Source: an uncultured Roseovarius sp.
GTDB lineage: Bacteria; Pseudomonadota; Alphaproteobacteria; Rhodobacterales; Rhodobacteraceae
NCBI GenBank assembly: GCA_947499555.1
Contig: CANMOU010000001.1
Span: 124,001 to 188,000 of the forward strand
Length of the DNA: 64,000 nucleotides
Reading direction: 5' to 3'
Positions 7,112-28,519 of the stretch are shown piece after piece (positions within the stretch are counted from its first letter, which is position 1; each line of letters opens with the position of its first letter). The notes under the pieces are model-generated. The model saw only the letters and a program-made list of their open reading frames with translations. It did not search any database and was not told the origin of the DNA. The position numbers and the translations under genes are program-made.

Positions 7112-8476
7112 TCAACTTTCACAATGCCGATCCGCAATCTCCAATGTCCGATCCAGAATTTCCAGTCCGATATCAAGGTCTTCACGGCTGATGTTCAGCG
7201 GCGGTGTAAGGCGGATGCAATTTGAGAAGAAAGACAGGTAAAGCCCTTCATTCATGGCATATTTCATCATTTCGGTCATTGGCGCCGCAGCGTCGCCCTT
7301 GGCGGCGAATGGTACCAGCATTTCGCGCGTGCCGCGGTTCTTCACAAGCTCGATGGCGTTGAACATGCCCTTGCCGCGAATGTCACCGATGCAGGGGTGC
7401 TTATCGGCCAGCTTGCTCAGTTCCGCGCGCAGATAGTCGCCCGAGGTCGTGGCCTGCGCCAGTGTGCTTTCCTCCTGCATCGCGCGAATGGCCGCAACGC
7501 CGGATGCACAGGCCAGAGGGTGGCCCGCATAGGTTAGCCCACCCGGCAACGAGTAATCCCTGAGCCAGGCCGCCAGTGTCTTCGACACCGACATTGTTCC
7601 CAAAGGCACATAGCCCGAGTTGATGCCCTTGGCGGAGCTAAGGATATCCGGCGCCACACCCCAGTGATCACAGGCAAACCATTCTCCTGTGCGCCCAAAA
7701 CCAGCCATAACTTCATCAAAAATAAGCAAAATACCGTTCCGATCGCAGGTTTCTCGGATGGATTGCAAATAGCCGTCGGGCGGGACGAGAATGCCGTTGG
7801 TGCCGACAATGGGTTCGATGATCACTGCTGCCACGGTCTGCGGGTTTTCATACATCAGGATCTCTTCCAGATGTGGTCCACCCTGGCTCACCGGACACTG
7901 CGCGCTGTCCTTGTGGCCCATCGGGCAGCGATAGCAATAGGGGTCCATCATGCGCACCACACCGGGCATGTCGCCGCGTGTCAGGTGACGGCGCGGATCG
8001 CCGGTGAGGCTGAGTGTGCCGCCGGTCGCGCCGTGATAGCTGCGATAGCGCGCCACGATCTTGGTTCGTCCGGTGTAGTGCCGTGCCAGACGGATTGCCA
8101 GTTCGTTGGCCGCAGAACCGCCCGTGGTGAAGAAGGTCGAGGTGATCGGCTCTGGTGTGATCTCGGTCATGAGTGCGGCCAGTTCCGAACGCACGTCCGA
8201 GCCCATGGCCGGGCCGATGTAACACAGCTTATCGGCTTGATCCTTGATGGCCTGCACGATCTTCGGATGTTGATGGCCCAGATTGGCGTTCACCAGCTGT
8301 GACTGGAAATCCAGATAGCGCTTGCCATCGCTGTCCCAGAACCAGCTGCCCTTAGCGCCCGTGATGACTGGCGGCTTGGCCCCTTGCTTGGACCAGCTTT
8401 GCAGGTAGTGGTTGGCATGCATTTCCTGCACCCAGTCCGGGTCATGCGTCGGATATTCATTGGAAAATTCGGACAT
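7112..8476 (-). CDS. Class III PLP-dependent aminotransferase
   Basis: A 454-residue fold-type I aminotransferase of class III. The pyridoxal-phosphate lysine is K283 (S-S-A-K-G-I-N-S-G-Y) and the partner aspartate is in I-F-D-E-V at residues 252-256. A Tyr/Cys-rich insert (Y-C-Y-R-C-P-M-G-H, residues 180-188, with another Cys at 194) is of the kind I associate with taurine-pyruvate-type and related omega-aminotransferases. The reaction is transfer of an amino group from an omega-amino acid or amine to pyruvate; the actual donor is unknown. ATG 8476 is chosen because GGAG precedes it at good spacing. It is the last gene of the minus arm of the island, 23 bp after an enolase-superfamily gene, so it probably acts on a product of that pathway. 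Confidence 0.88.
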   Translation of the reverse strand: MSEFSNEYPTHDPDWVQEMHANHYLQSWSKQGAKPPVITGAKGSWFWDSDGKRYLDFQSQLVNANLGHQHPKIVQAIKDQADKLCYIGPAMGSDVRSELAALMTEITPEPITSTFFTTGGSAANELAIRLARHYTGRTKIVARYRSYHGATGGTLSLTGDPRRHLTRGDMPGVVRMMDPYCYRCPMGHKDSAQCPVSQGGPHLEEILMYENPQTVAAVIIEPIVGTNGILVPPDGYLQSIRETCDRNGILLIFDEVMAGFGRTGEWFACDHWGVAPDILSSAKGINSGYVPLGTMSVSKTLAAWLRDYSLPGGLTYAGHPLACASGVAAIRAMQEESTLAQATTSGDYLRAELSKLADKHPCIGDIRGKGMFNAIELVKNRGTREMLVPFAAKGDAAAPMTEMMKYAMNEGLYLSFFSNCIRLTPPLNISREDLDIGLEILDRTLEIADRHCES

Positions 8477-8499
8477 GTCAGTCTCCAACAAAGGGAAAA

Positions 8500-9603
8500 T
8501 CAGTCAAAAACATGAGTGGGTGCACCCAGCACATCGGCATCCACCGTGATGCCAAGGCCGGGGCCCTCGGGTGGAATAATGCGACCATTGGTGCGCGTGG
8601 GTGTGTCAGGGGCCAGGCGCGGGCCGACATAGTGGCTTAGGTCACAGGTGTTCATCAACCCGCGCGTCGGTGTGGCGGCGGCCAGATGCAATACTGTTGC
8701 TGTCACGATGTCGCTGCCCCAGGTGTCTTCGATGCACATCTTGGTGCCCAAGGTCAGGCACAGGTCTCTTGCCGCCCGCATCGCCGAAAGACCGCTGAAC
8801 TTCGACAGTTTCAGCGCCACGGCGTCCATGCAGCCCTTGCCATGGGCCTCCAGCAGGGTCGCGATGTCGTAGGCCGCCTCATCAAGCTTCATCGGCAGGC
8901 CTGTGGCTGCGCGAACATGGGCACATTCCTCGATCGTTTCGCAGGGTTGCTCCAGCATCACGTCCAGATCACGCACCGCCCGCCCCACGCGTGTGGCCTC
9001 GAGCGCCGAGGCGCCACAATTCCAGTCACCGTAAACCAGCGGGCCGGGCCCAACAGCCGCACGCACCGCGCGCAGCCGCTCGACATCGGCCTGCCAGTCC
9101 GCATCGGCCCCCAGCTTGGCCTGAAACTGAGTCATGCCTTTGTCCTTTGCCTCCCGCGCCATGCGGGCCATCTCGTCGGGATCGATGCAGGTGATGGAAT
9201 GATAAAGCGGCATATCAGCCACCGCACGCCCGCCAAGAAGCGCATAAAGTGGTAGGCCTGCAGCTTGTGCCGTGAGGTCCCATAGGGCCATGTCGACAAT
9301 GGATTTGGCATATCCATGGCCCTTAAGGTGGGAATTCAGCCGCGCCATCAGCGCCTCCGGCCCGACCGGGTCCGCGCCGATGAGAACCGGTGCCATCTCA
9401 GCCACCGCCGGGGCCACGCCACCGGCGTAAGAGGGCAAGTAGTGCGGGATGGCACAGAATTCGCCCCAGCCGCTTAGACCGGTATCCGTGTCAGCACGTA
9501 GAACGACCGTGTCCACCGTCTCGCAGGTCTTGCCTTCGGCCATGTAATACGTGTCATGAGAGGTCAGTGGGACAGTCCAGAGGGTGAGCTTGGTGATTTT
9601 CAT
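8500..9603 (-). CDS. Enolase-superfamily protein (mandelate racemase/muconate lactonizing type), paralogue 1
   Basis: A 367-residue enolase-superfamily protein with N-terminal capping domain and a C-terminal barrel. Metal ligands are D193, E218 and D241. The two acid/base lysines K163 and K265 sit on opposite strands, the arrangement used for 1,1-proton transfer (racemases and epimerases). The opening (T-S-H-D-T-Y-Y-M-A) resembles what I remember of cis-3-hydroxy-L-proline dehydratase, an enzyme of the same superfamily found near betaine and hydroxyproline genes in marine Rhodobacterales; this is weak recall. It is the fourth of four paralogues in one operon and follows a 101-bp repeat. Substrate unproven. 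Confidence 0.85.
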   Translation of the reverse strand: MKITKLTLWTVPLTSHDTYYMAEGKTCETVDTVVLRADTDTGLSGWGEFCAIPHYLPSYAGGVAPAVAEMAPVLIGADPVGPEALMARLNSHLKGHGYAKSIVDMALWDLTAQAAGLPLYALLGGRAVADMPLYHSITCIDPDEMARMAREAKDKGMTQFQAKLGADADWQADVERLRAVRAAVGPGPLVYGDWNCGASALEATRVGRAVRDLDVMLEQPCETIEECAHVRAATGLPMKLDEAAYDIATLLEAHGKGCMDAVALKLSKFSGLSAMRAARDLCLTLGTKMCIEDTWGSDIVTATVLHLAAATPTRGLMNTCDLSHYVGPRLAPDTPTRTNGRIIPPEGPGLGITVDADVLGAPTHVFD

Positions 9604-9621
9604 CAGAGAGGTCCGTTTTCA

Positions 9622-9722
9622 GGTTGCGCCGCCTTTGGCGTCGCCGGGGGACAGGGGGCCAGCCCCCTCTGCGGCTGCGCCGCATTCACCCCCGGGATAT
9701 TTGAGCAAGAAGAAAGCACTGG
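9622..9722. repeat. 101-bp intergenic repeat, copy A
   Basis: By eye this segment matches 12239-12339 at 96 of 101 positions. It contains nested inverted repeats (G-C-C-G-C-C against G-G-C-G, and GGGGGCC-AGCCCCC) and ends in an AAGAAGAAAGC tail. Both copies lie in the same position: after the stop of an enolase-superfamily gene ending ...VAIY(D/E) and just before the start of the next one. It is intergenic and non-coding, of the palindromic type often seen in Rhodobacterales. It may stabilise or attenuate the operon mRNA. Confidence 0.85.
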
Positions 9723-9723
9723 T

Positions 9724-10830
9724 CTACTCATAGATGGCCACCGGGGTGCCAAGGATGTCAGGGTCAGGTGTGACGCCGAGGCCGGGACGCGTAGGGGGCG
9801 TGGCAAAACCCTTTGCGTTGCGCGCGCCCTGTCCCGGGACGGGGTCATCGGCGAGATGGTAATGGCAGAGCCAGGACGCGAGCCTGTTTTCATCCGGTGT
9901 CGCAGAAGCAAGATGGAGAGCGGCGGTATCGGCCAGGGCAGAGCCGCCGACATCCTCGATATGCATTTGCCATCCCACCGAGACGCCAAAATCGCGAATC
10001 TGGCGGGCTTTGGTGAGCCCGCCGACACGGTTTGGTTTGACCTTCACGCCCTCGCAGGCGCCGCGTTTCCAGGCCTCAAGATGGTCTTGAACCGTGTGCA
10101 TGCATTCGTCGAGCATAATCGGATTGGCGACGCGTGCAGCAACATGCGCGCATTGGTCAAGCGTCTCGCAAGGCTGCTCGACCCAGTCGCGCGCCTTTGT
10201 GGAGTTCAGCACTTCGATGGCCATGGCGGGTGTCCATGCGCGGTTCACATCAAAGGTCACGCGGTGGCCTTGGGGCAGGGCGGCAGAGATGGCCTCGATC
10301 CGGGCGATATCAATATCGGGGTCACTGCCGCCCACTTTGGCGGAATGGACCGTGTAGCCCTGTCTGGCGGCTATCTGGATGCGCGCGATCATTTCATCAG
10401 GCGTTCCGGTGGAAATCGAGGAATTGACTGTAACAGGCGTGGCTTCCGCGCCGCCGAGAAGCTTCCAGAGCGGCAGGCCTGCGGCCTGTCCGAGGATGTC
10501 CCAGCAGGCGATATCAATCGGGGATTTGGCATAAGGGTGGCCCGGAAGCTGCGTGTCCATCACGCGGTTGATATGATCGGGGCTGCGCGGGTCCTGACCG
10601 AGAAGAGCAGGCGCAAGAGTTTGGATCGCGGCACGCAGGCCGGGACCGTGGGCGGGTAGGTAGGTGTGCCCCCAAGGGCAGCCTTCGCCCCAGCCACTGA
10701 GCCCATCATCGGTGTCGATGCGCAGGAATGTGCTGTCGAGTGCCTCAAATTTCAGCCGGCCGCCCGAAAGCCAGTAGGGCTCGGCCAGTGGCAGATCATG
10801 CTGCCAAACGGAGAGGCGGGTGATCTTCAT
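9724..10830 (-). CDS. Enolase-superfamily protein (mandelate racemase/muconate lactonizing type), paralogue 2
   Basis: A 368-residue protein with metal ligands D194, E218 and D241 and opposed lysines K165 and K265. The barrel strand reads V-K-V-K-P-N-R-V-G-G-L. The N-terminus Y-W-L-S-G-G-R and the loop W-G-E-G-C-P-W-G-H-T-Y resemble the hydroxyproline-betaine 2-epimerase (HpbD) group, so a betaine epimerase role is a reasonable inference. Its ATG overlaps the stop of the small cupin (ATGA). Its 3' end shares near-identical codons with paralogue 4 and is followed by the same 101-bp repeat, suggesting a duplication. Confidence 0.85.
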   Translation of the reverse strand: MKITRLSVWQHDLPLAEPYWLSGGRLKFEALDSTFLRIDTDDGLSGWGEGCPWGHTYLPAHGPGLRAAIQTLAPALLGQDPRSPDHINRVMDTQLPGHPYAKSPIDIACWDILGQAAGLPLWKLLGGAEATPVTVNSSISTGTPDEMIARIQIAARQGYTVHSAKVGGSDPDIDIARIEAISAALPQGHRVTFDVNRAWTPAMAIEVLNSTKARDWVEQPCETLDQCAHVAARVANPIMLDECMHTVQDHLEAWKRGACEGVKVKPNRVGGLTKARQIRDFGVSVGWQMHIEDVGGSALADTAALHLASATPDENRLASWLCHYHLADDPVPGQGARNAKGFATPPTRPGLGVTPDPDILGTPVAIYE

Positions 10831-11111
10831 TTCAGTTCCACCTCGACGAAGGACATCGGTGCGTCACCGGCGTTGATCACGTTATGCTCGACGCCCTTGT
10901 CGCGGGCATAGGCGGTGCCGGCGGGAACGATGACCTCGCGGGTGGTGCCGCCGGGCTCCTCGAGGCGCATGTGGCAGTCGGTGAGGGCGGTGATGACATA
11001 ATCCATCCCGTGCGTGTGCCAGCCGGTTTGCTGACCCGCTTCAAAGTCAAACCGCGTGACACGGGTGCGGGCGTCGTCGATCAGTTGCGTGGCGGTGCAG
11101 GTCATGGTCAT
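10827..11111 (-). CDS. Small single-domain cupin
   Basis: A 94-residue cupin barrel. Motif 1 is G-W-H-T-H-G-M-D-Y and motif 2 is A-Y-A-R-D-K-G-V-E-H-N-V, giving two or three histidine ligands plus an acidic residue, compatible with metal binding. The start at 11111 overlaps the stop of paralogue 3 (ATGA) and has GGAGAGG upstream; an in-frame ATG at 11126 is also possible. It sits between two enolase-superfamily genes with four-base overlaps on both sides, so it is certainly part of the operon. Such tiny cupins may be isomerases, dioxygenases or sensors. The function is unknown. Confidence 0.75.
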   Translation of the reverse strand: MTMTCTATQLIDDARTRVTRFDFEAGQQTGWHTHGMDYVITALTDCHMRLEEPGGTTREVIVPAGTAYARDKGVEHNVINAGDAPMSFVEVELK

Positions 11112-12220
11112 GACGCCTCTCCCCATGAAGCGACGGGCGCGCCCAGGCTTTCAAAATCGGGTGTGGCACCCAGGCCCGGTGTGTCGGTGGCATAAAGCTT
11201 GCCATCCCTAGTCGTTGGCCCGCCGATGCCGGTGGAGCGGGTGTTGTAATTCATCAGATCGGTGGAGTTGATCAGGTACTCCTCGGGCGTTGATGCCGCG
11301 AAATGCGCTAGGGCTGCGCTAGTGATTTCACCCCCCCATGTGTCCTCGGCGACCACGGGAATGCGGTTCTCCACAAGAAAATCGCGCACCCGGCGGGCCT
11401 TGGAAAGACCACCCAGATTGGAAATTTTCAAACAGCAGATTTCAGCCCCCCGATCAGTTACCACGCGCTGCGCGGCCTGCAGGCCGGTGATGCATTCATC
11501 AAGCTTCATCGGCTGGGTGGCGACACGGCGGACCTGTTGGCATTCCTCGTAGGTCCTGCAGGGCTGTTCGAGGATGAAATCGAGGTCTGCCGTGGCGCGC
11601 GCCACACGAATGGCATTGTCCACGCGCCAGCCCTGGTTGGCGTCGGCCATGGCCTTTTCGCCGGGTTTCAGAAGCGGCACAGTGGCGCGGATGCGATCAA
11701 TATCGCTGGCCCAGTCTGCCCCCACCTTGATCTGGAATTGCCGATAGCCTGCGGCGCGGTGGCGTTCCATCTCGGCGATGGTTTCATCGCGGGGCCTTTG
11801 GGGCGCGACGCGGTACATTGGCGCGCCATCGGTCAGCTTGCCGCCCATCAGCATCCAGACCGGCTGATCCGTGGCCTGTCCGAGAATGTCCCAGAAGGCG
11901 GCGTCGAAAGGCGCCTTGGCATAGCCATGCCCCTGAACGATGTGGTCCATCAGCCGTTCCATATGTGCCACCTGCCTGGGGTCTTCGCCCAGCAGGTGTG
12001 CGGCGGCCAGGCGGGCAAAGGCCTCAACCCCTTCGGAATGGGCGACCATGTAATTCTCACCACAGGGAGTGAATTCCCCGCAACCCTGAAGACCGGCATC
12101 TGTGTCGATGACCACAATCGACGCTTTGGCCACGGAAATTGAATTACCAGCCCCCCAGCCATAGCTGGCATCGACATATGGAAGATCGGTCTTGTATAGG
12201 CGGATGCGGGTAATTTTCAT
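11108..12220 (-). CDS. Enolase-superfamily protein (mandelate racemase/muconate lactonizing type), paralogue 3
   Basis: A 370-residue protein with metal ligands D193, E218 and D241 and opposed lysines K165 and K265 (C-C-L-K-I-S-N-L-G-G-L). The ATG at 12220 aligns with the M-K-I-T start of the three sister proteins; the frame is open further upstream through the 101-bp repeat, but that part is not coding. It resembles paralogue 1 in the G-H-G-Y-A-K segment and in ending L-G-A-P. Racemase or epimerase chemistry is inferred from the two lysines. The substrate is unknown. Confidence 0.85.
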   Translation of the reverse strand: MKITRIRLYKTDLPYVDASYGWGAGNSISVAKASIVVIDTDAGLQGCGEFTPCGENYMVAHSEGVEAFARLAAAHLLGEDPRQVAHMERLMDHIVQGHGYAKAPFDAAFWDILGQATDQPVWMLMGGKLTDGAPMYRVAPQRPRDETIAEMERHRAAGYRQFQIKVGADWASDIDRIRATVPLLKPGEKAMADANQGWRVDNAIRVARATADLDFILEQPCRTYEECQQVRRVATQPMKLDECITGLQAAQRVVTDRGAEICCLKISNLGGLSKARRVRDFLVENRIPVVAEDTWGGEITSAALAHFAASTPEEYLINSTDLMNYNTRSTGIGGPTTRDGKLYATDTPGLGATPDFESLGAPVASWGEAS

Positions 12221-12238
12221 GAATGGGCTCTGCGAATG

Positions 12239-12339
12239 GGTTGCGCCGCCTTTGGCGTCGCCTGGGGGCAGGGGGCCAGCCCCCTCTGCGGCTCCGCCGC
12301 ATTCACCCCCGGGATACTTGGGCAAGAAGAAAGCACTGG
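12239..12339. repeat. 101-bp intergenic repeat, copy B
   Basis: This is the second copy of the element at 9622-9722, differing at five positions that I can count. It occupies the whole gap between paralogue 4 and paralogue 3. The inverted repeat around GGGGGCC-AGCCCCC is retained. Presence of the same element in the equivalent place between two gene pairs supports segmental duplication, although independent insertion of a mobile palindromic repeat is possible. Confidence 0.85.
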
Positions 12340-12340
12340 A

Positions 12341-13462
12341 TTAGTCATAGATGGCCACCGGGGTGCCAAGCGCGTTGAGATCAGGTGTGACGCCGAGACC
12401 GGGCGCGTCGGGCGCGCGCACGCCGCCCTTTTCCAGCGGCGCGTTAAAGGCTGCAATCCGGGCTGTGGTCATGGCACGGGTGTCCAGTGCCGCGCGCAGT
12501 TGAGCGCGCGGTGTCGATTGGGCGATGTGCAGCAGCGCGGCAAAGGCGATCTCGGAGCCGACCGTGTCCTGGATCGACACCGTCAGCCCGGCCGCCAATG
12601 CAATGGCGCGTTGGCGCAACATCGGGGTGATCCCGCCCTGTTTCGAGGTTTTCAATCCGACGCCATCGCAAAGGTCATGGGTGATCGCATAGATCAGGTC
12701 GGCTTCGGATTGGATCATCTCATCAAGCAGTATGGGTCGCGTGCAGCGCGCGCGCAGGCTTTGGGTCTCGCGCCATGTGGCACACGGGGCCTCAAACACC
12801 AAATCAGTGCCTTCAGGAAGGAGCGATAGCAGGCGCAGAGCGTGTTCAGGTGACATGCCGCCATTGGCATCAGCGAGGAACCATTCACCGGGCTGGCGGT
12901 CCATCAGGCAAGCGGCGATGCGCTGCGCATCCAGCGCCGGGCCGCCCTCGACCTCGCTTGCGCCGATCTTGATGGAATGGCTTTGGAACCCTTCCTTGCG
13001 GTGTGCGGCGACCTTGGCGCGCATGTTCTCGGGCGTGTCACTGCCGATGGAAGAAATGGTGGGCACCTGGCCCGGCAAGCGCCCGCCGATATGGTCACAA
13101 AGCGGTTGGTTTGCCGCCTTGGCGGAAATGTCCCAGCATGCGACATCAAGCGCGCAACGCGCATCGCGGTGCCCCTTGAGCGTGTCCTTCATCAGGTCCC
13201 AAAGCCGGTCATGCTGGCGCGGGTCCTGACCAAGAAGCGCGGGTGCAAGCAGGTCAATTCCTGCGCGTGTGCCACCGGCATGTGCCGCAATGTAGGTCGC
13301 TCCGAAGGGCGTGCTTTCGCCCCAGCCTTCGATGTCTTGATCAGTGGCGACGCGCAGGATCGTGGCATCATAGCTGGTGTACTCGCGCCCGCCGGAAAGC
13401 CGGTAGACCCCGCCCGCAACCGGCAGATCCGCCTGGAAGACCTCGATTCGGGTGATCTTCAT
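12341..13462 (-). CDS. Enolase-superfamily protein (mandelate racemase/muconate lactonizing type), paralogue 4
   Basis: A 373-residue protein with metal ligands D198, E224 and D247 and opposed lysines K165 (S-I-K-I-G-A) and K271 (L-K-T-S-K-Q-G-G). The N-terminus Y-R-L-S-G-G-R-E-Y and the loop W-G-E-S-T-P-F-G are similar to paralogue 2 and to N-methylproline/betaine epimerase-like members. Its ATG overlaps the stop of the first dddQ-like gene, so it is translationally coupled to the DMSP lyase genes. The final residues are L-G-T-P-V-A-I-Y-D, as in paralogue 2. Substrate is unproven. Confidence 0.85.
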   Translation of the reverse strand: MKITRIEVFQADLPVAGGVYRLSGGREYTSYDATILRVATDQDIEGWGESTPFGATYIAAHAGGTRAGIDLLAPALLGQDPRQHDRLWDLMKDTLKGHRDARCALDVACWDISAKAANQPLCDHIGGRLPGQVPTISSIGSDTPENMRAKVAAHRKEGFQSHSIKIGASEVEGGPALDAQRIAACLMDRQPGEWFLADANGGMSPEHALRLLSLLPEGTDLVFEAPCATWRETQSLRARCTRPILLDEMIQSEADLIYAITHDLCDGVGLKTSKQGGITPMLRQRAIALAAGLTVSIQDTVGSEIAFAALLHIAQSTPRAQLRAALDTRAMTTARIAAFNAPLEKGGVRAPDAPGLGVTPDLNALGTPVAIYD

Positions 13463-15742: not shown

Positions 15743-15767
15743 CGGGCGATCCTTTCGATGGGTGATT

Positions 15768-15785
15768 GGAAAATTGCAATTTTCC
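15768..15785. promoter_or_regulatory. Perfect 18-bp palindrome, TTGCAA core
   Basis: GGAAAATTG-CAATTTTCC is a perfect, loop-less dyad in the 75-bp gap between the FAD demethylase and the MDR gene, 26 to 43 bases before the MDR start. It is AT-rich inside GC-rich DNA and has no T-tract, so it reads as an operator, not a terminator. It lies next to a second dyad with the same core. Confidence 0.6.
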
Positions 15786-15788
15786 GTT

Positions 15789-15810
15789 TCGTTTTCTTGC
15801 AAGAAAACGA
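15789..15810. promoter_or_regulatory. Perfect 22-bp palindrome, TTGCAA core
   Basis: Eleven bases (TCGTTTTCTTG) are followed by their exact reverse complement. The centre is 23 bp from the centre of the neighbouring 18-bp dyad, about two helical turns, as expected for cooperative binding of two dimers on one face of DNA. It lies 8 bp after the stop of the upstream gene region. The core TTGCAA is shared by both sites. Confidence 0.6.
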
Positions 15811-15817
15811 CATGGTT

Positions 15818-18316: not shown

Positions 18317-18328
18317 GTACATATGTAC
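18317..18328. promoter_or_regulatory. 12-bp palindrome in the divergent promoter
   Basis: GTACATATGTAC is a perfect dyad near the middle of the 71-bp region between the two arms of the island. A second, imperfect repeat (18344-18361) lies close by. The position suits an operator for the adjacent RpiR regulator acting on both arms. Confidence 0.5.
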
Positions 18329-18339
18329 CGTCGTCAATC

Positions 18340-20961: not shown

Positions 20962-20964
20962 ACA

Positions 20965-21783: not shown

Positions 21784-21852
21784 ACATGCCTTTCTTTTTG
21801 CCTCAAATATCCTCGCCGAAGGCCACGCCCGCAGGGCGTATACACAGGACAC
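21784..21852. repeat. Degenerate intergenic repeat with hairpin
   Basis: The stretch CTTTCTTTTTGCCTCAAATA resembles the reverse complement of the tail of the 101-bp repeats at 9622 and 12239, followed by the hairpin ACGCCC-GCA-GGGCGT. It lies in the 69-bp gap between two plus-arm genes and could attenuate transcription of the distal genes. Confidence 0.45.
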
Positions 21853-22599
21853 ATGCACATGCATAAAATAATTTCCCTCTGGGCTGTGCCCCGTTCGACC
21901 TCCACCGCCTTTGAATGGATGATGCGCCAGCGCGGTGATATGGATTGCCTGCACGAACCCTTTGGTGAGGCGTGGTATCAGGGCGAAGAACCCCTTTGGC
22001 AGCGCTTCAAGGAAGGCGATGTCACGACGCCCGGTCTGACCTTGAACAGCGTCTGGCGGGACATTCAGGATCGCGCGGCCAAAGGCCCGGTCTTCCTGAA
22101 GGATTTTCCGCATTACATCAATCACATGTGGGACGCGGAGTTCCTTGCGAACTTCACTCATGCCTTCCTCATCCGTGATCCGGCCAAGACGATCACCTCC
22201 ATGCACAACAAATGGCCGGATTTTGATGAGGGCGAGGTGGGTTTTCCCGAACAGCGCGCGCTTTTTGACCTGCTTTGGGCGCTCAATGGCGCGCCGCCAC
22301 CGGTCATCGACAGTGACGATTTGCTGGAAAATCCCGAAGCGATGGTCGAGGCGTTTTGTGATGCTGTAGGCATTCCGTTTCTGCCGGAAGCCCTGAGTTG
22401 GGAAGCTGGCGGCGACCCGTCCGAGCACAGCTGGTGGGATGGCGGGTCCTTTCATGCCAATCTGGCCAAATCCACCGGTTTAACCCGGCAGGAACGGCGC
22501 TATGTTGCGCTGGAGGATTGTGCGCCGCGCGTGCAGCAGGTGCATCGGCGCATGCGTCCACATTATGACCGGCTCTATGCGCATCGCGTGACGGTCTGA
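21853..22599 (+). CDS. Sulfotransferase-like P-loop protein
   Basis: A 248-residue protein. The N-terminal strand-loop I-S-L-W-A-V-P-R-S-T-S-T-A-F is a PAPS-binding-type P-loop of the sulfotransferase family, and F-L-I-R-D-P-A-K-T-I near residue 110 matches the 3'-phosphate-binding strand. Such proteins transfer sulfate from PAPS to an alcohol or amine, but bacterial members of this short type are mostly uncharacterised. A start at 21859 (second Met) is equally possible. It is unrelated in detail to the two sulfotransferases at 30068 and 30894. Its presence inside a catabolic operon is unusual. Confidence 0.7.
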   Translation: MHMHKIISLWAVPRSTSTAFEWMMRQRGDMDCLHEPFGEAWYQGEEPLWQRFKEGDVTTPGLTLNSVWRDIQDRAAKGPVFLKDFPHYINHMWDAEFLANFTHAFLIRDPAKTITSMHNKWPDFDEGEVGFPEQRALFDLLWALNGAPPPVIDSDDLLENPEAMVEAFCDAVGIPFLPEALSWEAGGDPSEHSWWDGGSFHANLAKSTGLTRQERRYVALEDCAPRVQQVHRRMRPHYDRLYAHRVTV

Positions 22600-22617
22600 G
22601 CGGGCCGCAGGGCAAAA

Positions 22618-24072
22618 ATGGAATGGAAGATGAAAGACTATTGGCAGAACTACATTGGTGGCGCGTGGGTCGATGGCGGAGCCGGGCGGCTTGACGTGAT
22701 CAACCCCGGAAGCGGTGAGAAACTGGCCGAGCAGGCACTGGCCGATGCTGCGGATGTGGACCGCGCCGTGCAGGCGGCCAAACGCGTGCACGAGAGCGGC
22801 ATTCTGACCGATATGCGCCCGGTGGAGCGGGGTCGCATGGTGCAGGAGATTGGGCGTAAGTTTCTGGAAAGGCGTGATGAAATTGCCGAGATCCTTACGC
22901 TGGAGCAAGGCAAGCCATTGTGGGAAGCGCAGCGTGAAATGGACGGCGCGGCACGATATTTTGAGTATTACGGCAATCAGGCCGAAACGGTCGAAGGGCG
23001 GTCGATCCCTCTAGGTGCAGGTTACGTCGATTTTACTCAGCATGAGCCTTATGGCATCTCGGCTCAGATCATCCCTTGGAACTTTCCGTTAGAGATCGCC
23101 GCGCGATCACTCTCCGCAGGGTTGGCCACGGGGAATGCCTGCGTGATCAAAACCTCGGAAATGACCCCGCTCAGCAGCTGGATTTTTGCCGAACTGGCCG
23201 AGGAGGTGGGCCTGCCCAAGGGCGCGGTGAATATCCTCTGTGGGTTGGGGGCCGAGGCAGGGGCGGCGCTTGCAGGCCATCCTGATGTCAATCAAATCGT
23301 CTTCACAGGTTCGGTCAAAACCGGAATTGCCATTGCCACGGCGGCCGCTCAAAACATCGTGCCAAGCGTTCTGGAACTGGGCGGCAAATCGGCGGCCATC
23401 GTGTATGACGATGCCGATCTTGACGCGTTCGAGCGCGACATCCGCTGGGGGATTTTCTTCAATGCGGGTCAGGTTTGTTCCGCCATGAGCCGTGTTCTGG
23501 TCCATGAAAGCCGTGAGGAGGAAATGGTAGAACGTGCTGTAAAGGTTGCGAAATCCCTGTCCGTTGGTCCCGGCATCGAGAGAGCTGTGGGCACCGAAGG
23601 CATGGGTGCCATGGCCTCTGAGGTACAGCGTGACCGCGCCGCCGGCATGATCGCAGACGCTGAAGCACAGGGCGCAAAGGTGGCAACCGGTGGGCGCAAG
23701 ATGAACATCCCCGGCGCATTCCTTGAACCGACAGTGATGACGCAGGTCACGCCCGACATGACCATCGCACAGGAAGAAGTGTTTGGCCCGGTACTCTCGG
23801 TCATTCCCTTCCGGGACGAGGCCGAGGCTATCGAGATCGCCAATGGCACCCAATACGGACTTGTGGGTGGCGTTTTCACCCGTGATCTTGATCGCGCCAA
23901 CAAGGCCGCGCAAAAGATGCGGGCCGGGCAGATCTTTGTGAATGAATGGTTTGCCGGTGGTGTGGAGACGCCCTTTGGCGGGTATGGTAAATCGGGCTAT
24001 GGGCGCGAGAAAGGCCGCGAGGCGCTTTGGAACTATGTCCAGACCAAGAACGTTGCGATGAAAGTCCGGTAG
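22618..24072 (+). CDS. NAD(P)-dependent aldehyde dehydrogenase
   Basis: A 484-residue aldehyde dehydrogenase of standard length. I-P-W-N155-F-P holds the oxyanion Asn, E253 in L-E-L-G-G-K is the general base, and C287 in N-A-G-Q-V-C is the nucleophile; E-E-V-F-G-P is present downstream. The enzyme oxidises an aldehyde to an acid with NAD(P). Betaine-aldehyde-like and semialdehyde dehydrogenases have this form. It could handle formaldehyde-derived or semialdehyde products of the island's demethylation or transamination steps. The start at 22618 is used, and 22630 is an alternative. It precedes the FrhB-like gene by one base. Confidence 0.9.
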   Translation: MEWKMKDYWQNYIGGAWVDGGAGRLDVINPGSGEKLAEQALADAADVDRAVQAAKRVHESGILTDMRPVERGRMVQEIGRKFLERRDEIAEILTLEQGKPLWEAQREMDGAARYFEYYGNQAETVEGRSIPLGAGYVDFTQHEPYGISAQIIPWNFPLEIAARSLSAGLATGNACVIKTSEMTPLSSWIFAELAEEVGLPKGAVNILCGLGAEAGAALAGHPDVNQIVFTGSVKTGIAIATAAAQNIVPSVLELGGKSAAIVYDDADLDAFERDIRWGIFFNAGQVCSAMSRVLVHESREEEMVERAVKVAKSLSVGPGIERAVGTEGMGAMASEVQRDRAAGMIADAEAQGAKVATGGRKMNIPGAFLEPTVMTQVTPDMTIAQEEVFGPVLSVIPFRDEAEAIEIANGTQYGLVGGVFTRDLDRANKAAQKMRAGQIFVNEWFAGGVETPFGGYGKSGYGREKGREALWNYVQTKNVAMKVR

Positions 24073-24073
24073 T

Positions 24074-25291
24074 TTGAGCACTCGACAACCGCAATCCGTA
24101 AGAGAAGTGGTCGAAAGCGGCCTGTGCATCGGCTGTGGCCTGTGTGAGGCATTGGTCCCGGACCGCTGGGTCATGCGCATGAATGCCCAGGGCCGTTTGC
24201 GCCCCGCACCGAAACAGGCCGAAGATCCAAAGGCTGATGCAGCTATTCTTGCCGCCTGTCCGGGCGTGGTGGCCGAGGCCGAGGCGCGCGGCTGTGAGGC
24301 TGACCCGGTCTGGGGTAGCTACATGCAAATGCATGAGGCTTGGGCCGGGGATGCCGATATACGGTTTCGCGCCGCTACAGGTGGCGTGCTGACAGCCCTT
24401 GGCGTCCATCTTCTCAACTCCGGCAAGGCCGCCTTCATTCTGCATTGCGCGGCGGACTCGGATCACCCGATGCGCACGCGATGGGTGATGTCCGACACGG
24501 CTCAAGAAGTCGCCGCACGTGCGGGCTCCCGTTATGGGCCAAGCGATACGCTGGCGGGGCTTGAGGCAGCGCTTCGGCGCGAAGAACCCTTTGCAATCAT
24601 TGCTAAACCTTGTGATGCGGGTGCTGTGCGCGCCCGTGCCAAAGATGATCCGCGACTGAGCAAGCTGCTGGTGGCCGTGCTGGTCATGGTTTGCGGTGGG
24701 GCCTCTGATCTGGGCAAGTCGCAGGCCGTTCTGCATGAGCTGGATTTGGCAGAGGATGAGCTGACGCTCTTTCGGTATCGTGGCCATGGCAATCCAGGCC
24801 CCACGCGGATCGAGACCCGCGATGGGCGCAGTTTTGAAAAGACCTATCAAGAGATGTGGGCGGATGAGGCGGGCTGGCGCATCCAGACCCGGTGCAAGCT
24901 GTGCCCGGATGCGATTGGCGAAGCGGCGGATATAGCTGCGGCAGACATTTGGCCTGATGCCAACCCGGAAGGCGAAGACGAAGGCTTTAACGGCGTGATC
25001 ATTCGCTCCCCCGAAGGACAGGCGCTGTTTTATGCCGCCGTAGCGTCGGGCGATCTGGTGCAGGGTGTGGCACATGGCCCGCGCGACTATGACCATTTCC
25101 AGCCACATCAGGTACGCAAAAAGCATGCAATCGCATCAAGACTGCGTGGCCTGACCAAAGCAGGCCGTCCGGTCTATGCCCATAAAGGGCTGCGCATTGA
25201 TGAGCTGGACACGGGCGATCTGTCCGAAGAACAAGGGGCGGAAGCCCGTGCGCGCTCGGGGCGCTTTGATGACGAAATGCCAAGCCTTTGA
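24074..25291 (+). CDS. Coenzyme F420 hydrogenase/dehydrogenase beta subunit family (FrhB-like) iron-sulfur protein
   Basis: A 405-residue protein. C18-I-G-C21-G-L-C24 with C62-P gives a [4Fe-4S] site, followed by the FrhB N- and C-terminal domains (F-R-A-A-T-G-G-V-L and A-K-P-C-D-A segments) and further Cys in C-K-L-C. FrhB relatives use flavin and iron-sulfur clusters to reduce or dehydrogenate substrates; in bacteria without F420 they serve other reductions. The start is a TTG one base after the aldehyde dehydrogenase stop; a GTG about 33 bases later is possible but would lie very near the first Cys. It may be the missing electron donor for the Rieske oxygenase, but that is speculation. Confidence 0.8.
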   Translation: MSTRQPQSVREVVESGLCIGCGLCEALVPDRWVMRMNAQGRLRPAPKQAEDPKADAAILAACPGVVAEAEARGCEADPVWGSYMQMHEAWAGDADIRFRAATGGVLTALGVHLLNSGKAAFILHCAADSDHPMRTRWVMSDTAQEVAARAGSRYGPSDTLAGLEAALRREEPFAIIAKPCDAGAVRARAKDDPRLSKLLVAVLVMVCGGASDLGKSQAVLHELDLAEDELTLFRYRGHGNPGPTRIETRDGRSFEKTYQEMWADEAGWRIQTRCKLCPDAIGEAADIAAADIWPDANPEGEDEGFNGVIIRSPEGQALFYAAVASGDLVQGVAHGPRDYDHFQPHQVRKKHAIASRLRGLTKAGRPVYAHKGLRIDELDTGDLSEEQGAEARARSGRFDDEMPSL

Positions 25292-26133
25292 TTACAAAGC
25301 CGTTCACACAGGATCAGGCGCGCGGCATGTTGATCGGTCTGGCGGTCGGGGATGCGCTGGGCACAACGCTGGAATTCACCACGCGCGGAGAGTTTGAGCC
25401 GATCACCGATATGGTCGGCGGCGGGCCCTTCAACCTCAAACCCGGGCAATGGACCGACGATACATCCATGGCCATGTGTTTGGCGCAGATGCTGCGCTCG
25501 GCCAATGGCTGGGATGCCGAAGATGCGATGAAACGCTTCATCAACTGGCGCGACCATGGCTACCTGTCCTCAACCCGCGTGTGTTTTGACATTGGCATGC
25601 AAACCGCCGACGCATTGCGCCACTTTGAGCAAACCGGCAACCCCTATGCCGGACCGGTCGAGAACGAAAAAAGCGGCAATGGCGGGATCATGCGGCTGGC
25701 CCCTGTGGTTCTGGCCTATGGTGCGGTCAAGGAGAGCGCAATGGCCGTCGCACAGCTGCAAAGCCGCCTCACCCATGCCAGCCCGCTTTGTCAGAAGGCC
25801 GCCGCCAACATGGCGCAGTTCATGGTGACCGGCGATCAAACCCTTCTGCCACATCCCGATGACCCGCCTGAAGAGGCCACAGGTTATGTGATGCACACGC
25901 TGCACGCGGCCTTCTGGGCGCTCACTCAGGGTGAGACGTTTCGCGATGTGCTGCTCGCTGCCGTCAATCTGGGTGGCGATGCGGATACGGTCGGCGCCGT
26001 CGCCGGCCAGCTTGCCGGCCGCATCTATGGCTATAGCGGTATTCCTGAAAACTGGCGCGAGATGCTTTATGACCACATGAAAATCCGGACCGCAGCGGAT
26101 GATCTATATGCCATGCGTCCAATTGACCAATAA
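25288..26133 (+). CDS. ADP-ribosylglycohydrolase (DraG/ARH) family protein
   Basis: A 281-residue protein with the full ARH signature: GDALG at 21-25, W-T-D-D-T-S at 55-60 and G-G-D-A-D-T-V-G at 229-236. These acidic residues bind the dinuclear magnesium site that removes ADP-ribose from proteins or cleaves related N-glycosides. It starts with TTG at 25288, overlapping the stop of the FrhB-like gene, since the later ATG at 25327 would cut into the conserved N-terminus. Its place in a catabolic operon is odd: either it regulates an operon enzyme by removing ADP-ribose, or it hydrolyses a small molecule. Confidence 0.85.
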   Translation: MITKPFTQDQARGMLIGLAVGDALGTTLEFTTRGEFEPITDMVGGGPFNLKPGQWTDDTSMAMCLAQMLRSANGWDAEDAMKRFINWRDHGYLSSTRVCFDIGMQTADALRHFEQTGNPYAGPVENEKSGNGGIMRLAPVVLAYGAVKESAMAVAQLQSRLTHASPLCQKAAANMAQFMVTGDQTLLPHPDDPPEEATGYVMHTLHAAFWALTQGETFRDVLLAAVNLGGDADTVGAVAGQLAGRIYGYSGIPENWREMLYDHMKIRTAADDLYAMRPIDQ

Positions 26134-26150
26134 CCACGAAAGGAACTCTC

Positions 26151-26537
26151 ATGAGCCTCTTTGATGAAGACCTGTTTCTAAAAGGTCTCGAACAGCGTAA
26201 AGGCACGTTAGGCGCTGAATATGTTGAAAAAAATCTTGCAGCGGCAGATGATTTCACACGCCCTTTCCAGGAGGCGATGACCGCCTGGTGCTGGGGGTTT
26301 GGCTGGGGCGATGATGTCATTGACGCCAAGACGCGTTCGATGATGAACCTCACGATGATTGGCGCATTAGGCAAGATGAACGAGTTTGAGATCCATTGCC
26401 GGGGCGCACTTAACAATGGGGTCAGCAAAGAGGAAATCCGTGCGATTGTGCATGTGGTGGCGATCTACTGCGGCGTTCCGCAAGGGCTGGAATGCTTCCG
26501 GCATGCGCGCAATGTGTTGGAAGAGCGTGGCCTCTGA
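26151..26537 (+). CDS. Carboxymuconolactone decarboxylase (CMD) family protein
   Basis: A 128-residue all-alpha CMD/AhpD-fold protein. The segment N-E-F-E-I-H-C-R-G-A followed by V-S-K-E-E-I-R-A-I-V is the classical PcaC-type core. The AhpD C-x-x-C motif is absent, so it is not a peroxidase. PcaC decarboxylates 4-carboxymuconolactone, but many single-domain members have unknown substrates. GAAAGGAA precedes the ATG. It occurs together with a PcaB-like lyase three genes on, without any ring-cleavage enzymes in the window. Confidence 0.82.
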   Translation: MSLFDEDLFLKGLEQRKGTLGAEYVEKNLAAADDFTRPFQEAMTAWCWGFGWGDDVIDAKTRSMMNLTMIGALGKMNEFEIHCRGALNNGVSKEEIRAIVHVVAIYCGVPQGLECFRHARNVLEERGL

Positions 26538-26621: not shown

Positions 26622-27452
26622 ATGACAAACCCTTGCATCATTTGTGTGGCCATCACCGGATCGGTACCTCAAAAGGCTGACAATCCGGCTGTGCCGATCA
26701 CGGTCGAGGAACAGATTGAATCGACACACGCGGCATTTGATGCGGGTGCATCTATTGCACATTGCCACGTCCGCATGGACGACGGCACGCCCACTTCCGA
26801 TCCCGAACGCTTCGCACGTCTGGGGGAAGGGATCCGCAAACATTGCCCCGACATGATCGTGCAGTTCTCAACCGGTGGCCGCTCGGGTGCCGGGGCCGAG
26901 CGAGGAGGGATGCTGCCTCTGCGACCCGACATGGCATCCCTGTCCGTCGGCTCGAACAACTTCCCGACGCGCGTCTATGAAAACCCACCCGACCTGGTGG
27001 CCTGGCTTGCAAGTGAGATGCAAACACATGAGGTTGTGCCAGAGATTGAGGCCTTTGATTTAAGCCATATTTTGCAGGCTATCGCCCTACATGAAGCGGG
27101 CGCGCTCTACGGGTCGCTCTATGTGCAATTCGTCATGGGTGTGAAAAATGCCATGCCTGCAGATAGGGACGTGTTCGATTTCTATGTGCGGATGATGCAA
27201 GAGCGCGCCCCAGAGGCACAATGGTGCGCTGCGGGCATTGGCGCCAATCAAATCAAGGTCAATGAATGGGCGATTGCCGCAGGCGGGCACACGCGCACTG
27301 GCCTCGAAGACAACGTGCGCCTGTCCAAGGACGCACTTGCACCGTCTAATGCTGCGCTCGTCATGCGCGCGGTCGAGATTTGTGAGAAATACGAACGGCC
27401 CGTGGCCACAGCTTCTCAGGCGCGCGAGATCTTGGGACTGCGTGCCGCATGA
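26622..27452 (+). CDS. Beta-keto acid cleavage enzyme (BKACE, DUF849)
   Basis: A 276-residue barrel. A-H47-C-H49-V-R supplies the zinc-binding histidines found in all BKACE proteins. The family condenses a beta-keto acid with acetyl-CoA, giving acetoacetate and a new CoA ester. Known members use 3-keto-5-aminohexanoate, dehydrocarnitine and other beta-keto acids. Dehydrocarnitine is attractive here because of the betaine-type oxygenase and the flavin demethylase, but specificity residues cannot be judged by eye. Its stop overlaps the PcaB-like start (ATGA). Confidence 0.85.
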   Translation: MTNPCIICVAITGSVPQKADNPAVPITVEEQIESTHAAFDAGASIAHCHVRMDDGTPTSDPERFARLGEGIRKHCPDMIVQFSTGGRSGAGAERGGMLPLRPDMASLSVGSNNFPTRVYENPPDLVAWLASEMQTHEVVPEIEAFDLSHILQAIALHEAGALYGSLYVQFVMGVKNAMPADRDVFDFYVRMMQERAPEAQWCAAGIGANQIKVNEWAIAAGGHTRTGLEDNVRLSKDALAPSNAALVMRAVEICEKYERPVATASQAREILGLRAA

Positions 27453-28519
27453 GCGCGCCGAGGACCTGGTTGCAAGCGCTGTCCGGCCACGCGGGCGTGG
27501 CTGCGCGCCTTGGCGATGATGCTCAGATCGCCGACATGCTAAAGATTGAGGCGCTTTATGCCCGTGCCGCAGGGCGGGTTGGCAAAGTTGATGCTGACAT
27601 GGCCGAGGCTGCCGCTGTGGCTATCGAAGCTGTGGCCATCGACCAAACCCGCCTCAGAAAAGCTGCGGCAAGAGACGGTGCTCCGGTGCCTGACCTGGTG
27701 GCCCAGATCAAAGACGCCACGCCTGCGTCGCTGTACCCGGCGATCCACAAAGGCATGACCAGCCAGGATGTCATGGACACGGCCTTCGTTCTGGCGGCAA
27801 GAGATATTCTTGAAGAATTAGAAGATCTTATGAGCGGCGTGCTGGCTGCATGCGATACTCTCGACCAAAAGTTTGGCGGCAGGCCTTTGATGGCGCGGAC
27901 ACGTATGCAGGCCGCCTTGCCCGTCACGGTTGCTCACCGGATTGCCAAGTGGCGTTCGCCTTTGGCTGACAGCCTGACCCAACTCGCGACGTTAAGACCG
28001 CGTCTTCTGCAGCTACAGTTGGCGGGCCCTGTCGGGACCGGCGAAAGCTTCGATGGGTTCGTCGAAGCATTGGCCAATGACATGGCTCAGGAACTTAACC
28101 TCAACGTTGCAAAAACCCCCTGGCAGACACAGCGCGGCCCTTATGCCGAACTGGCAAACTGGCTTGCGATGGTCTCGGGCAGTTTGGGGCAAATCGGTGC
28201 GGATCTTACCCTGATGGCTCAGCAAGGTATCGATGAGGCGACACTTTCTGGCGGTGGTTCGTCCTCTGCCATGGCGCATAAGTCAAACCCGATTGGTGCC
28301 GAAGTGCTGGTGGCGCTGTCGCGCGACTCATCCCTTCAACAGGCGGGAATGACGCTTGCGCTTGGGCATGAGCAAGAGCGGTCAGGTGTGGCCTGGACAC
28401 TCGAATGGCTGGTCTTGCCGCGACTCATGGAAAACACAGCAGCAGGCCTTGAGATCGCCATGCGGCTCTTGGGAGACGTCGTTTCCCTCGGTTCCTCCTC
28501 GGGCGACCAAAAACTGTGA
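27449..28519 (+). CDS. 3-carboxymuconate cycloisomerase-like (fumarase/aspartase superfamily, PcaB-type)
   Basis: A 356-residue lyase. The superfamily signature S-S-S-A-M-A-H-K-S-N-P-I is present, and T-S-Q-D-V-M-D-T lies in the first conserved region. Known PcaB proteins (about 350-450 residues) cyclise 3-carboxymuconate, while other members are argininosuccinate or adenylosuccinate lyases. The short form and the CMD neighbour point to PcaB type. With no ring-cleavage genes here, the substrate may be an amino-acid-derived dicarboxylate. It is the last gene of the plus arm. Confidence 0.8.
   Translation: MSAPRTWLQALSGHAGVAARLGDDAQIADMLKIEALYARAAGRVGKVDADMAEAAAVAIEAVAIDQTRLRKAAARDGAPVPDLVAQIKDATPASLYPAIHKGMTSQDVMDTAFVLAARDILEELEDLMSGVLAACDTLDQKFGGRPLMARTRMQAALPVTVAHRIAKWRSPLADSLTQLATLRPRLLQLQLAGPVGTGESFDGFVEALANDMAQELNLNVAKTPWQTQRGPYAELANWLAMVSGSLGQIGADLTLMAQQGIDEATLSGGGSSSAMAHKSNPIGAEVLVALSRDSSLQQAGMTLALGHEQERSGVAWTLEWLVLPRLMENTAAGLEIAMRLLGDVVSLGSSSGDQKL

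Follow-up and report, generated by a model that had tools for sequence, protein, structure and literature searches.

A mobile divergent gene cluster of Roseovarius, probably for the catabolism of methylated onium carboxylates, with an optional lyase module

We analysed 64,000 nucleotides of an uncultured Roseovarius sp. genome (contig CANMOU010000001.1, positions 124,001 to 188,000; this whole stretch is called the window) and, within it, a two-armed gene island built around an RpiR-family regulator, a Rieske oxygenase, a dimethylglycine dehydrogenase (DMGDH)-type flavoprotein with a folate domain (FADT) and four enolase-superfamily racemases (En1-En4). Judged from its genes and their conservation, the island is probably a horizontally mobile divergon that controls its own expression and breaks down methylated onium (betaine-type) carboxylates, with an optional lyase module. 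Its gene order and partners recur across dozens of species, so it is more than a chance assembly, and it looks co-regulated and catabolic. The initial annotation had read the locus as an onium-degrading island, which is supported in that a CntA-like Rieske oxygenase, a DMGDH-type FAD and tetrahydrofolate demethylase and intact racemases all fit methylated onium compounds; degradation of several onium osmolytes, as it put the function, is possible. Because the core is found without DddQ, a climate-relevant lyase of dimethylsulfoniopropionate (DMSP), and in Lotus-derived Mesorhizobium, DMSP is unlikely as its substrate.

Organization of the island

Genes were identified from open reading frame (ORF) calls together with Pfam and NCBIfam profile scans. 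Between the ten genes of the minus arm and a plus arm that begins with the RpiR and Rieske genes lies a 71-bp gap (18269-18339). Outwards from the promoter, the minus arm encodes FADT, an MDR-family reductase, DddQb, DddQa, En4, En3, a small cupin, En2, En1 and a class III aminotransferase. The plus arm encodes, in order, RpiR, the Rieske oxygenase, an unassigned protein, Amd, Sulf, an aldehyde dehydrogenase (ALDH), an FrhB-like protein, an ADP-ribosylglycohydrolase, CMD, BKACE and a PcaB-like lyase. The 71-bp divergent promoter beside RpiR that had been proposed at the outset is the gap between two conserved ATG codons. All ten genes claimed for the minus arm were found, the plus arm has 11 ORFs and not the twelve counted earlier, and the supposedly frequent four-base overlaps number six by ORF coordinates (10827-10830, 13459-13462, 14657-14660, 19224-19227, 25288-25291 and 27449-27452). 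The profile scans recovered every enzyme class that had been named, but the earlier gene list had omitted the genes for the MDR reductase, the sulfotransferase, the Asp/Glu-racemase/AMDase-like protein, the FrhB/FdhB protein and the ADP-ribosylglycohydrolase. The conserved unit covers about 7112-26537 and carries strain-specific insertions. Its features, the insertions aside, are as follows.

7112-8491, minus strand: class III aminotransferase (AT3, PRK06062-like); PF00202 4e-96; NF004718 540 bits, cut-off 472
8500-9603, minus strand: En1, enolase-superfamily racemase/epimerase; PF13378/PF02746; nearest PDB entry 4mgg, 276 bits
9724-10830, minus strand: En2, enolase-superfamily paralogue; nearest PDB entry 2qdd, 690 bits
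10827-11126, minus strand: small single-domain cupin; PF07883 1.8e-8
11108-12325, minus strand: En3, enolase-superfamily paralogue; nearest PDB entry 2rdx, 741 bits
12341-13462, minus strand: En4, enolase-superfamily paralogue, rare; nearest PDB entry 2pce, 613 bits
13459-14118, minus strand: DddQ-type cupin lyase a (DddQa); PF16867 71.9 bits; nearest PDB entry 4b29, 246 bits
14061-14660, minus strand: DddQ-type cupin lyase b (DddQb); PF16867 59.8 bits; nearest PDB entry 5cu1, 172 bits
14657-15802, minus strand: MDR-family (quinone-oxidoreductase-like) reductase; PF00107/PF08240
15818-18268, minus strand: FADT, DMGDH-type FAD oxidoreductase with GCV_T folate domain; DAO, FAO_M, GCV_T, GCV_T_C
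18269-18339, no strand: divergent promoter region, 71 bp, between conserved start codons
18305-18335, no strand: putative RpiR site, operator-like element GACAnnnTAnnnnnACAnnnGTACCnTnGTC, from a 58-row alignment
18340-19227, plus strand: RpiR-family regulator (HTH_6 and SIS); PF01418, PF01380
19224-20312, plus strand: Rieske oxygenase alpha subunit, CntA-like; PF00355, PF00848; signature N-Y-S-E-C-Y-H-C (group Va)
20965-21783, plus strand: Amd, Asp/Glu-racemase or arylmalonate-decarboxylase-like; PF17645 26.8 bits, cut-off 25.9
21853-22599, plus strand: Sulf, Sulfotransfer_5 protein; PF19798 3.9e-20
22618-24072, plus strand: ALDH, betaine-aldehyde-dehydrogenase-like; PF00171; TIGR01804 431 bits, below the cut-off of 669
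26151-26537, plus strand: CMD, carboxymuconolactone-decarboxylase-family protein; TIGR02425 117.5 bits, below the cut-off of 155.7

Conservation of the cluster

Orthologues of the Rieske gene occur in 29 of 149 genomes of the same family, the window's own included (at least 61% identity; the next matches reach at most 41%). A scan of named genomes gave 80 loci, the best of 588 Rieske relatives. From the two sets taken together 79 loci were examined (L031-L110 minus L058, whose Rieske protein is 37% identical); the count leaves out L111-L139, at 32-37% identity. Dropping 10 loci below 55% Rieske identity and two duplicates gave 67 non-redundant orthologous loci in addition to the window's own. 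Full context was available for 46 of them, with 8.5 kb or more in view ahead of the Rieske gene and 4.1-10 kb behind it.

In these 46 loci the genes most often kept encode RpiR (43), FADT (42), En1 (40), a GSAM-like aminotransferase (38), CMD (33) and MDR (30), followed by En2b (25), En3 (16), DddQ (15), ALDH (14), Amd (11), Sulf (11), GFA (10), the small cupin (6), En2a (3), FrhB (1) and En4 (0). En1 is thus the most constant racemase of the cluster, and an En4 orthologue was found in one of the 67 loci. AT3 stands where most relatives have the GSAM-like aminotransferase and is shared by L066 and L200 (81%). Amd always occurs with Sulf (11 of 11 full-context loci, 16 of 16 among the 67). MDR and En2b are linked, with both present in 24 loci, MDR only in six, En2b only in one and neither in 15 (Fisher p 1.4e-6); because related loci are not independent, the Fisher p values given here are indicative only.

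The Rieske oxygenase and the DMGDH-type flavoprotein

The Rieske protein aligns with CntA (PDB 6y8j) over residues 12-353 of 362 at 205 bits, and the next structures reach at most 112 bits. It has the marks of group V, namely a bridging Glu and a Cys-X-X-Cys beside the mononuclear iron. Members of this group have the bridging Glu, in some cases the Cys-X-X-Cys, and quaternary-ammonium substrates; group Va enzymes have Tyr or Phe (carnitine, choline, benzalkonium) and group Vb enzymes have Asn (demethylation of glycine betaine and stachydrine) (PMC7948474, PMC10952381). Position 190 of the Rieske protein aligns to CntA Tyr203, with the bridging Glu and the Cys pair also in register. Across 68 rows this position is Tyr in 64, the window among them, His in three (L057, L093, L103) and a gap in one; the Asn of group Vb appears in 0 of 68. 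E192, C193 and C196 are kept in all 67 rows that have letters there. By its signature the enzyme is of group Va (CntA type), and N-demethylation is no more likely than C-N cleavage or carbon hydroxylation.

FADT matches mitochondrial DMGDH (PDB 5l46) at 522 bits, with DAO, FAO_M, GCV_T and GCV_T_C domains over its full length.

The racemases and the hydroxyproline-betaine analogy

Racemases and epimerases of the MLE subgroup have two catalytic lysines, on strands 2 and 6. The equivalents K163 and K265 and the metal ligands D193, E218 and D241 are present in 103 of 103 enolase rows, and En1-En4 are intact; each of the four can therefore in principle carry out 1,1-proton transfer. As cis-3-hydroxy-L-proline dehydratases En1-En4 were rejected, with 342, 317, 390 and 294 bits for the four genes against the NF043002 cut-off of 500. 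Their matches to the HpbD structures 2pmq and 4h2h lie at 167-195 bits and are not their nearest PDB matches, and those to muconate cycloisomerase are weak (100-124 bits, cut-off 335).

A variant of the hydroxyproline/proline-betaine (Hpb) pathway would put the same enzymes to a different use. The racemases would act on a cyclic amino-acid betaine, inverting its Calpha, the Rieske oxygenase and the flavoprotein would remove its two N-methyl groups, the aminotransferase and ALDH would process the ring-opened product, and DddQ and MDR would be passengers or enzymes for a side product. The enolases do fall in the c3LHypD family, at 294-390 bits on the NF043002 model and so below its cut-off, and they match PDB entries 4mgg, 4h2h and 2pmq. 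The core also occurs in Lotus-derived Mesorhizobium, a setting where N-betaines are expected and DMSP is not. In proteobacterial metagenome-assembled genomes (MAGs; L095-L097) the cluster adjoins a TMADH-like flavoprotein (by Pfam) and a further Rieske-like protein (by eye), with another enolase-like protein (by eye) in L095 and L097. However, the Rieske protein has the Va tyrosine and not the Vb asparagine of the demethylating GbcA and Stc2, the flavoprotein is of the DMGDH type, and no late Hpb-type gene was recognized among the annotated genes of the window. The host moreover has a separate betaine-type cluster (contig C5, 30000-49000; L192), which encodes a TMADH-like flavoprotein, two Rieske proteins, a racemase 57% identical to En2, a CoA-transferase, an ALDH and an SBP_bac_5 protein. 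We consider an Hpb variant rather unlikely; the betaine reading of the initial annotation is supported, and its hydroxyproline-betaine analogy holds only in part.

The divergent promoter and its operator-like element

In a 58-row promoter alignment that takes in the window, the FADT ATG at 18268 and the RpiR ATG at 18340 are conserved in most rows; for FADT an ATG at 18274 is another possible start, and the longest ORF reaches 18337. The same alignment revealed the 31-bp element GACAnnnTAnnnnnACAnnnGTACCnTnGTC (18305-18335). Allowing up to three mismatches, 52 of 66 loci have it upstream of the Rieske gene, as against none of 63 control stretches of equal length taken downstream. It matches once in the window (0.03 expected from shuffles), and the host genome has a single copy with zero mismatches and two other matches with three mismatches each. 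RpiR may bind this putative site and so switch both arms. A wider RpiR regulon was rejected, as the element has no second good genomic copy.

Between TCGACA (18303-18308) and TACCGT (18326-18331) the spacing is 17 bp, and the second box, which reads TACCAT in most relatives, ends 8 bp before the RpiR ATG. The pair looks like a putative -35/-10 promoter for a possibly leaderless RpiR transcript.

Taxonomic reach and plasmid copies

The unit is found mostly in Rhodobacterales, and also in Mesorhizobium, Roseibium and several gammaproteobacterial MAGs. In Sulfitobacter sp. SK012 (L230) the divergon lies, without DddQ, on a 93-kb plasmid predicted to be conjugative, and the plasmid copy of Ruegeria sp. 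SCSIO 43209 (L228) adjoins a phosphonate C-P lyase operon. Both the DMGDH-type dehydrogenase and the Rieske oxygenase require electron partners such as ETF or ferredoxin-reductase proteins. The plasmid copy of the Lotus-derived Mesorhizobium sp. 131-2-5 is adjoined by EtfA, EtfB and a flavoprotein, and the M. erdmanii copy has ETF domains and a ferredoxin-reductase-type protein alongside (Pfam). In two genomes of one genus (L214, L215) a Rieske-MDR-GSAM trio (Rieske identity 43-44%) faces a polyamine-type ABC transporter, which fits a cationic substrate; TIGR01187 is over its cut-off there, and the PotF, PotG and PotI models are below theirs. On a Leisingera caerulea plasmid (L229), a related cluster, Rieske-ALDH-MDR-MR/MLE, precedes an operon that carries the annotation Na+-translocating NADH:quinone reductase.

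DddQ- and DddP-type lyases beside racemases and MDR

DddQa and DddQb exceed the PF16867 cut-off of 27 bits with 71.9 and 59.8 bits, and both keep equivalents of Tyr120, His123, His125, Glu129, Tyr131 and His163, the six catalytic residues listed for DddQ (PMC4437653). The crystallized RlDddQ (PDB 5jso) is 96.7% identical over 183 amino acids to the in-cluster DddQ of two Ruegeria records (L063, L094). DddQ adjoins cluster racemases, MDR or FADT in 18 of the 67 loci, and MDR is present in 13 of the 15 full-context loci with DddQ.

The 149-genome family sample holds 91 places with a PF16867 match in 61 genomes, 15 of them (10 genomes) inside the cluster and 76 outside. Of the out-of-cluster regions, 50 around lower-scoring and six around higher-scoring places were retrieved. 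MDR-DddQ pairs occur at L149, L164 and L166 with no Rieske orthologue in view, and a CMD-DddQ pair at L162. At L154 and L158 DddQ lies on short contigs with cluster genes and without Rieske, L154 being an MDR-DddQ pair with En3 and En1. In all, 21 of the 91 places are linked to a cluster gene. Monophyly of the cluster-linked DddQ proteins was rejected: their tree needs 12 label changes against 19.3 when shuffled, at least eight of them forced by well-supported branches, with L224, a duplicate of the G736 locus L210, wrongly counted in the 'other' group. Cluster linkage has therefore been gained or lost several times. At L164 (4112-9885) CMD diverges from an MDR-DddQ pair that has a TRAP transporter (DctP/DctM) behind it; this mini-cluster may be the simplest one in which to look for the DddQ substrate.

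The MDR protein is below the cut-offs of all 25 NCBIfam families listed. It was rejected as AcuI (34 bits against the NF051456 cut-off of 440). In Ruegeria pomeroyi dddQ, and in Roseovarius nubinhibens dddQ1 and dddQ2, are reported as likely co-transcribed with an MDR gene, and the R. nubinhibens MDR protein ISM_14095 did not correct an acrylate-sensitive yhdH mutant (PMC3338564). The failure in this test speaks against the alkene being simply acrylate or acryloyl-CoA.

A second lyase family recurs in the same setting. In an Acidiferrobacteraceae MAG (L095), a run of RpiR-Rieske-Amd-Sulf-En3-En2b-MDR is followed 34 bp on by the gene for an M24 protein. Its closest structural matches are to DddP, at 210-220 bits where prolidase reaches 70, and on the DddP model, with its cut-off of 600, it has 260.6 bits. 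An alphaproteobacterium (L217) has a DddP (NF043017 705 bits, cut-off 600; 61% identical to RlDddP over 394 amino acids) with genes for a racemase (37% identical to En2b) and an MDR homologue (53%) coming next. At L220 a DddP-like protein (39% to that of L095) is encoded 30 bp before MDR, with no racemase on the 7.3-kb contig. Two unrelated folds with DMSP-lyase chemistry thus stand beside the same MDR family, in L095 and L217 together with a racemase.

This recurrent racemase-lyase-reductase association is new. DddQ and some DddP proteins, by recurring with a racemase and a non-AcuI MDR, may eliminate the onium group from an undescribed substrate. Tentatively, and with more doubt than confidence, we suggest that DddQ and some DddP proteins belong to a module acting natively on an alpha-substituted beta-onium carboxylate (N- or S-methylated) and not on DMSP, whose cleavage would be secondary. 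In such a module the racemase would set Calpha, the two lyase folds would perform the same beta-elimination, and MDR would reduce the product.

Proposed pathway and points against it

For the island as a whole, we propose the following route. RpiR on the 31-bp site in the 71-bp promoter would switch both arms. The racemases, whose catalytic residues are in place, would epimerize the carbon alpha to the carboxylate inside the cell. The CntA-type Rieske oxygenase, as its signature suggests, would oxidize a carbon adjoining the onium nitrogen; the product would be an aldehyde for the betaine-aldehyde-dehydrogenase-like ALDH and/or formaldehyde for the GFA of some relatives. By homology, FADT would pass remaining N-methyl groups to tetrahydrofolate, and the class III aminotransferase would remove the freed amine. 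In the optional module, DddQ (two copies here) or a DddP-family lyase would eliminate a beta-onium group, and MDR would reduce the alkene left behind. CMD, Amd and Sulf lie outside the proposed steps.

Several observations weigh against these proposals. For the core, RpiR is absent in the Ruegeria sp. SCSIO 43209 plasmid copy, both from the gene table and from the space between FADT and Rieske, and the window cluster has neither a Rieske reductase nor a dedicated transporter. The group Va assignment hangs mainly on one residue, and the best NCBIfam match of the Rieske protein is the glycine betaine monooxygenase GbcA (NF058607, residues 8-208), an identity that we rejected at 149.8 bits against a cut-off of 670. 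For the module, the co-occurrence of MDR and DddQ is modest given MDR's own frequency (13 loci with both, 17 with MDR only, two with DddQ only and 14 with neither; Fisher p 0.049, from related loci). At L077 the DddQ gene lies outside the operon, 44 of the 50 lower-scoring out-of-cluster DddQ-type regions have no cluster orthologue nearby, and the related DddP-like gene of L096 is in two pieces, 3.5 kb from MDR. In the class sample, where at most four or five candidates per genome were scored and counts are therefore lower bounds, a DddP-family match lies within 2 kb of MDR in at least two genomes (G817, G814; about 0.16 expected, P 0.012 for two or more). Finally, dddQ mutants are reported to make less dimethyl sulfide (DMS), by 97% in R. 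pomeroyi and 20% in R. nubinhibens, and dddQ to be DMSP-induced (PMC5395565).

The last of these points would suit a DMSP island, in which DMSP would be the physiological substrate of DddQ, with acrylate or related sulfonium compounds left to the other genes. Less DMS in the mutants and induction by DMSP do indicate in vivo cleavage of DMSP by DddQ in cells supplied with it. None of the published catalytic residues is missing from either DddQ copy (PMC4437653), and the same MDR family recurs beside DddP, a further family of DMSP lyases. Against such an island, DddQ is present in only 15 of the 46 full-context loci, and ISM_14095 failed to correct acrylate sensitivity (PMC3338564). In R. pomeroyi DMSP induces dddQ only 1-4 fold against 40-fold for dddW (PMC4437653). 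The Km of Ruegeria lacuscaerulensis DddQ for DMSP is 22 mM (PMC5395565), which leaves room for another main substrate. The host also has, away from the island, a DddP (84% to RlDddP), a DmdA over its cut-off and, beside DmdA at C1:1091073, an AcuI-like gene (418 bits, below the cut-off of 440), so its DMSP use does not need the island. We therefore regard a DMSP island as quite unlikely and retain methylated onium carboxylates as the probable substrates of the divergon.

The DddQ-free core in dozens of species points to an uncharacterized Rieske/DMGDH/racemase pathway. Of the DMSP lyase genes of bacteria, dddP and dddQ are reported to be the commonest in the Global Ocean Sampling metagenome (PMC5395565). 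Should dddQ have its home in a betaine-type pathway able to take on either of two unrelated lyase folds next to the same racemases and reductase, dddQ counts would not necessarily reflect DMSP cleavage, the high Km that DddQ has for DMSP would be explained, and a methylated-osmolyte route not yet described would become testable in genetically tractable roseobacters.

Strain-specific genes and the limits of the island

Four further features are rare or lacking among the orthologous loci.

20305-20961, plus strand: unassigned protein, hydrophobic segments by eye, window-specific; no Pfam or NCBIfam match; GC content at third codon positions (GC3) 0.44
24074-25291, plus strand: FrhB/FdhB-family protein, rare accessory; PF04432/PF04422
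25288-26133, plus strand: ADP-ribosylglycohydrolase family protein, window-specific; PF03747 2.3e-66
26622-28519, plus strand: BKACE and PcaB-like lyase, directly behind the conserved unit; NCBIfam 488 against 350 bits (BKACE), PcaB-like below cut-offs

The unassigned protein, the ADP-ribosylglycohydrolase, BKACE and PcaB were found in none of the 46 full-context loci, and the first two in none of the 67. FrhB homologues were seen in L060 and, at 46%, in L213. The unassigned gene follows the Rieske gene, a position taken by GFA in some relatives, and its GC3 compares with about 0.65-0.70 in most neighbours; it looks like a recent insertion. ADP-ribose-related insertions occur twice, as the ADP-ribosylglycohydrolase of the plus arm and as a NADAR-domain protein in the L200 minus arm (11130-11732).

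The initial annotation had drawn the island too wide by including BKACE and PcaB. In all 31 full-context loci with CMD downstream of Rieske at least 2.8 kb beyond CMD is visible, so BKACE and PcaB would have shown there, and we rejected both as pathway members. Also rejected as partners were the genes past CMD in L032, L035, L060, L063 and L094, which are thiolase and paa-type genes. These limits bear on an aromatic or sugar-acid pathway in which CMD, PcaB and BKACE form a beta-ketoadipate branch and the mandelate racemase/muconate-lactonizing (MR/MLE) enzymes act as cycloisomerases or dehydratases. BKACE does exceed the NCBIfam cut-off for 3-oxoadipate:acetyl-CoA acetyltransferase (488 against 350 bits), its neighbours are PcaB- and PcaC-like, and the enolases have their weak matches to muconate cycloisomerase. 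However, BKACE and PcaB are absent from all 46 loci. CMD was rejected as PcaC, with 117.5 bits against the TIGR02425 cut-off of 155.7 and a separate PcaC elsewhere (G000:C3:246257, 178 bits). On the hydroxyproline-dehydratase model the enolases reach 294-390 bits, compared with 100-124 for muconate cycloisomerase, and both a DMGDH-type enzyme and a group V Rieske oxygenase are at odds with aromatic substrates. Such a pathway is very improbable.

Elsewhere in the window, about 13 kb past the island (41341-46560), a DAO oxidoreductase and a sarcosine-oxidase-alpha-like protein with GCV_T form a second demethylase-type pair. Two tandem sulfotransferases (30068-31760) are followed by a branched-chain-amino-acid-type ABC transporter (32389-35714).

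Comparison with known systems

The Rieske-RpiR-DMGDH-racemase divergon as a whole was not found in the open literature, and subscription papers may hold part of it. An open-literature search for DddQ with enolase, mandelate racemase or Rieske found no such link, and of the locus tags SPO1590-1601 only SPO1593 and SPO1596 appear in the open papers found on these bacteria.

Individual components have closer counterparts. Like CntA, the Rieske protein has the bridging Glu, the Cys pair and the cation-binding Tyr, and an ALDH is encoded nearby, as needed after C-N cleavage; it is, however, only a 205-bit relative, and the island has no CntB-type reductase, with racemases, a DMGDH-type enzyme and DddQ beside the Rieske gene. 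FADT resembles dimethylglycine dehydrogenase (5l46) as a full-length FAD and GCV_T fusion but differs in belonging to a divergon. With the HpbD and proline-betaine pathways of alphaproteobacteria, reportedly described by Zhao in 2013 and Kumar in 2014, the island shares the grouping of an enolase-superfamily racemase with a Rieske oxygenase and a demethylating flavoprotein, whereas its Rieske group, flavoprotein type, RpiR, aminotransferase, MDR, CMD and lyases set it apart. RlDddP (4rzy) is matched by the L217 protein at 61% identity and over the NCBIfam cut-off; however, the L217 gene lies in an operon with a racemase and MDR, the L095 and L220 proteins are only distant relatives, and the window cluster has none.

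The structures 2rdx, 2pce, 2qdd and 4b29, which we take to be R. nubinhibens proteins, closely match En3, En4, En2 and DddQa, respectively. The R. nubinhibens dddQ1-dddQ2 and R. pomeroyi SPO1593-SPO1596 loci resemble the island in having DddQ (a pair in R. nubinhibens) next to an MDR gene, but in the accessible text of PMC3338564 they are described with DddQ and MDR only.

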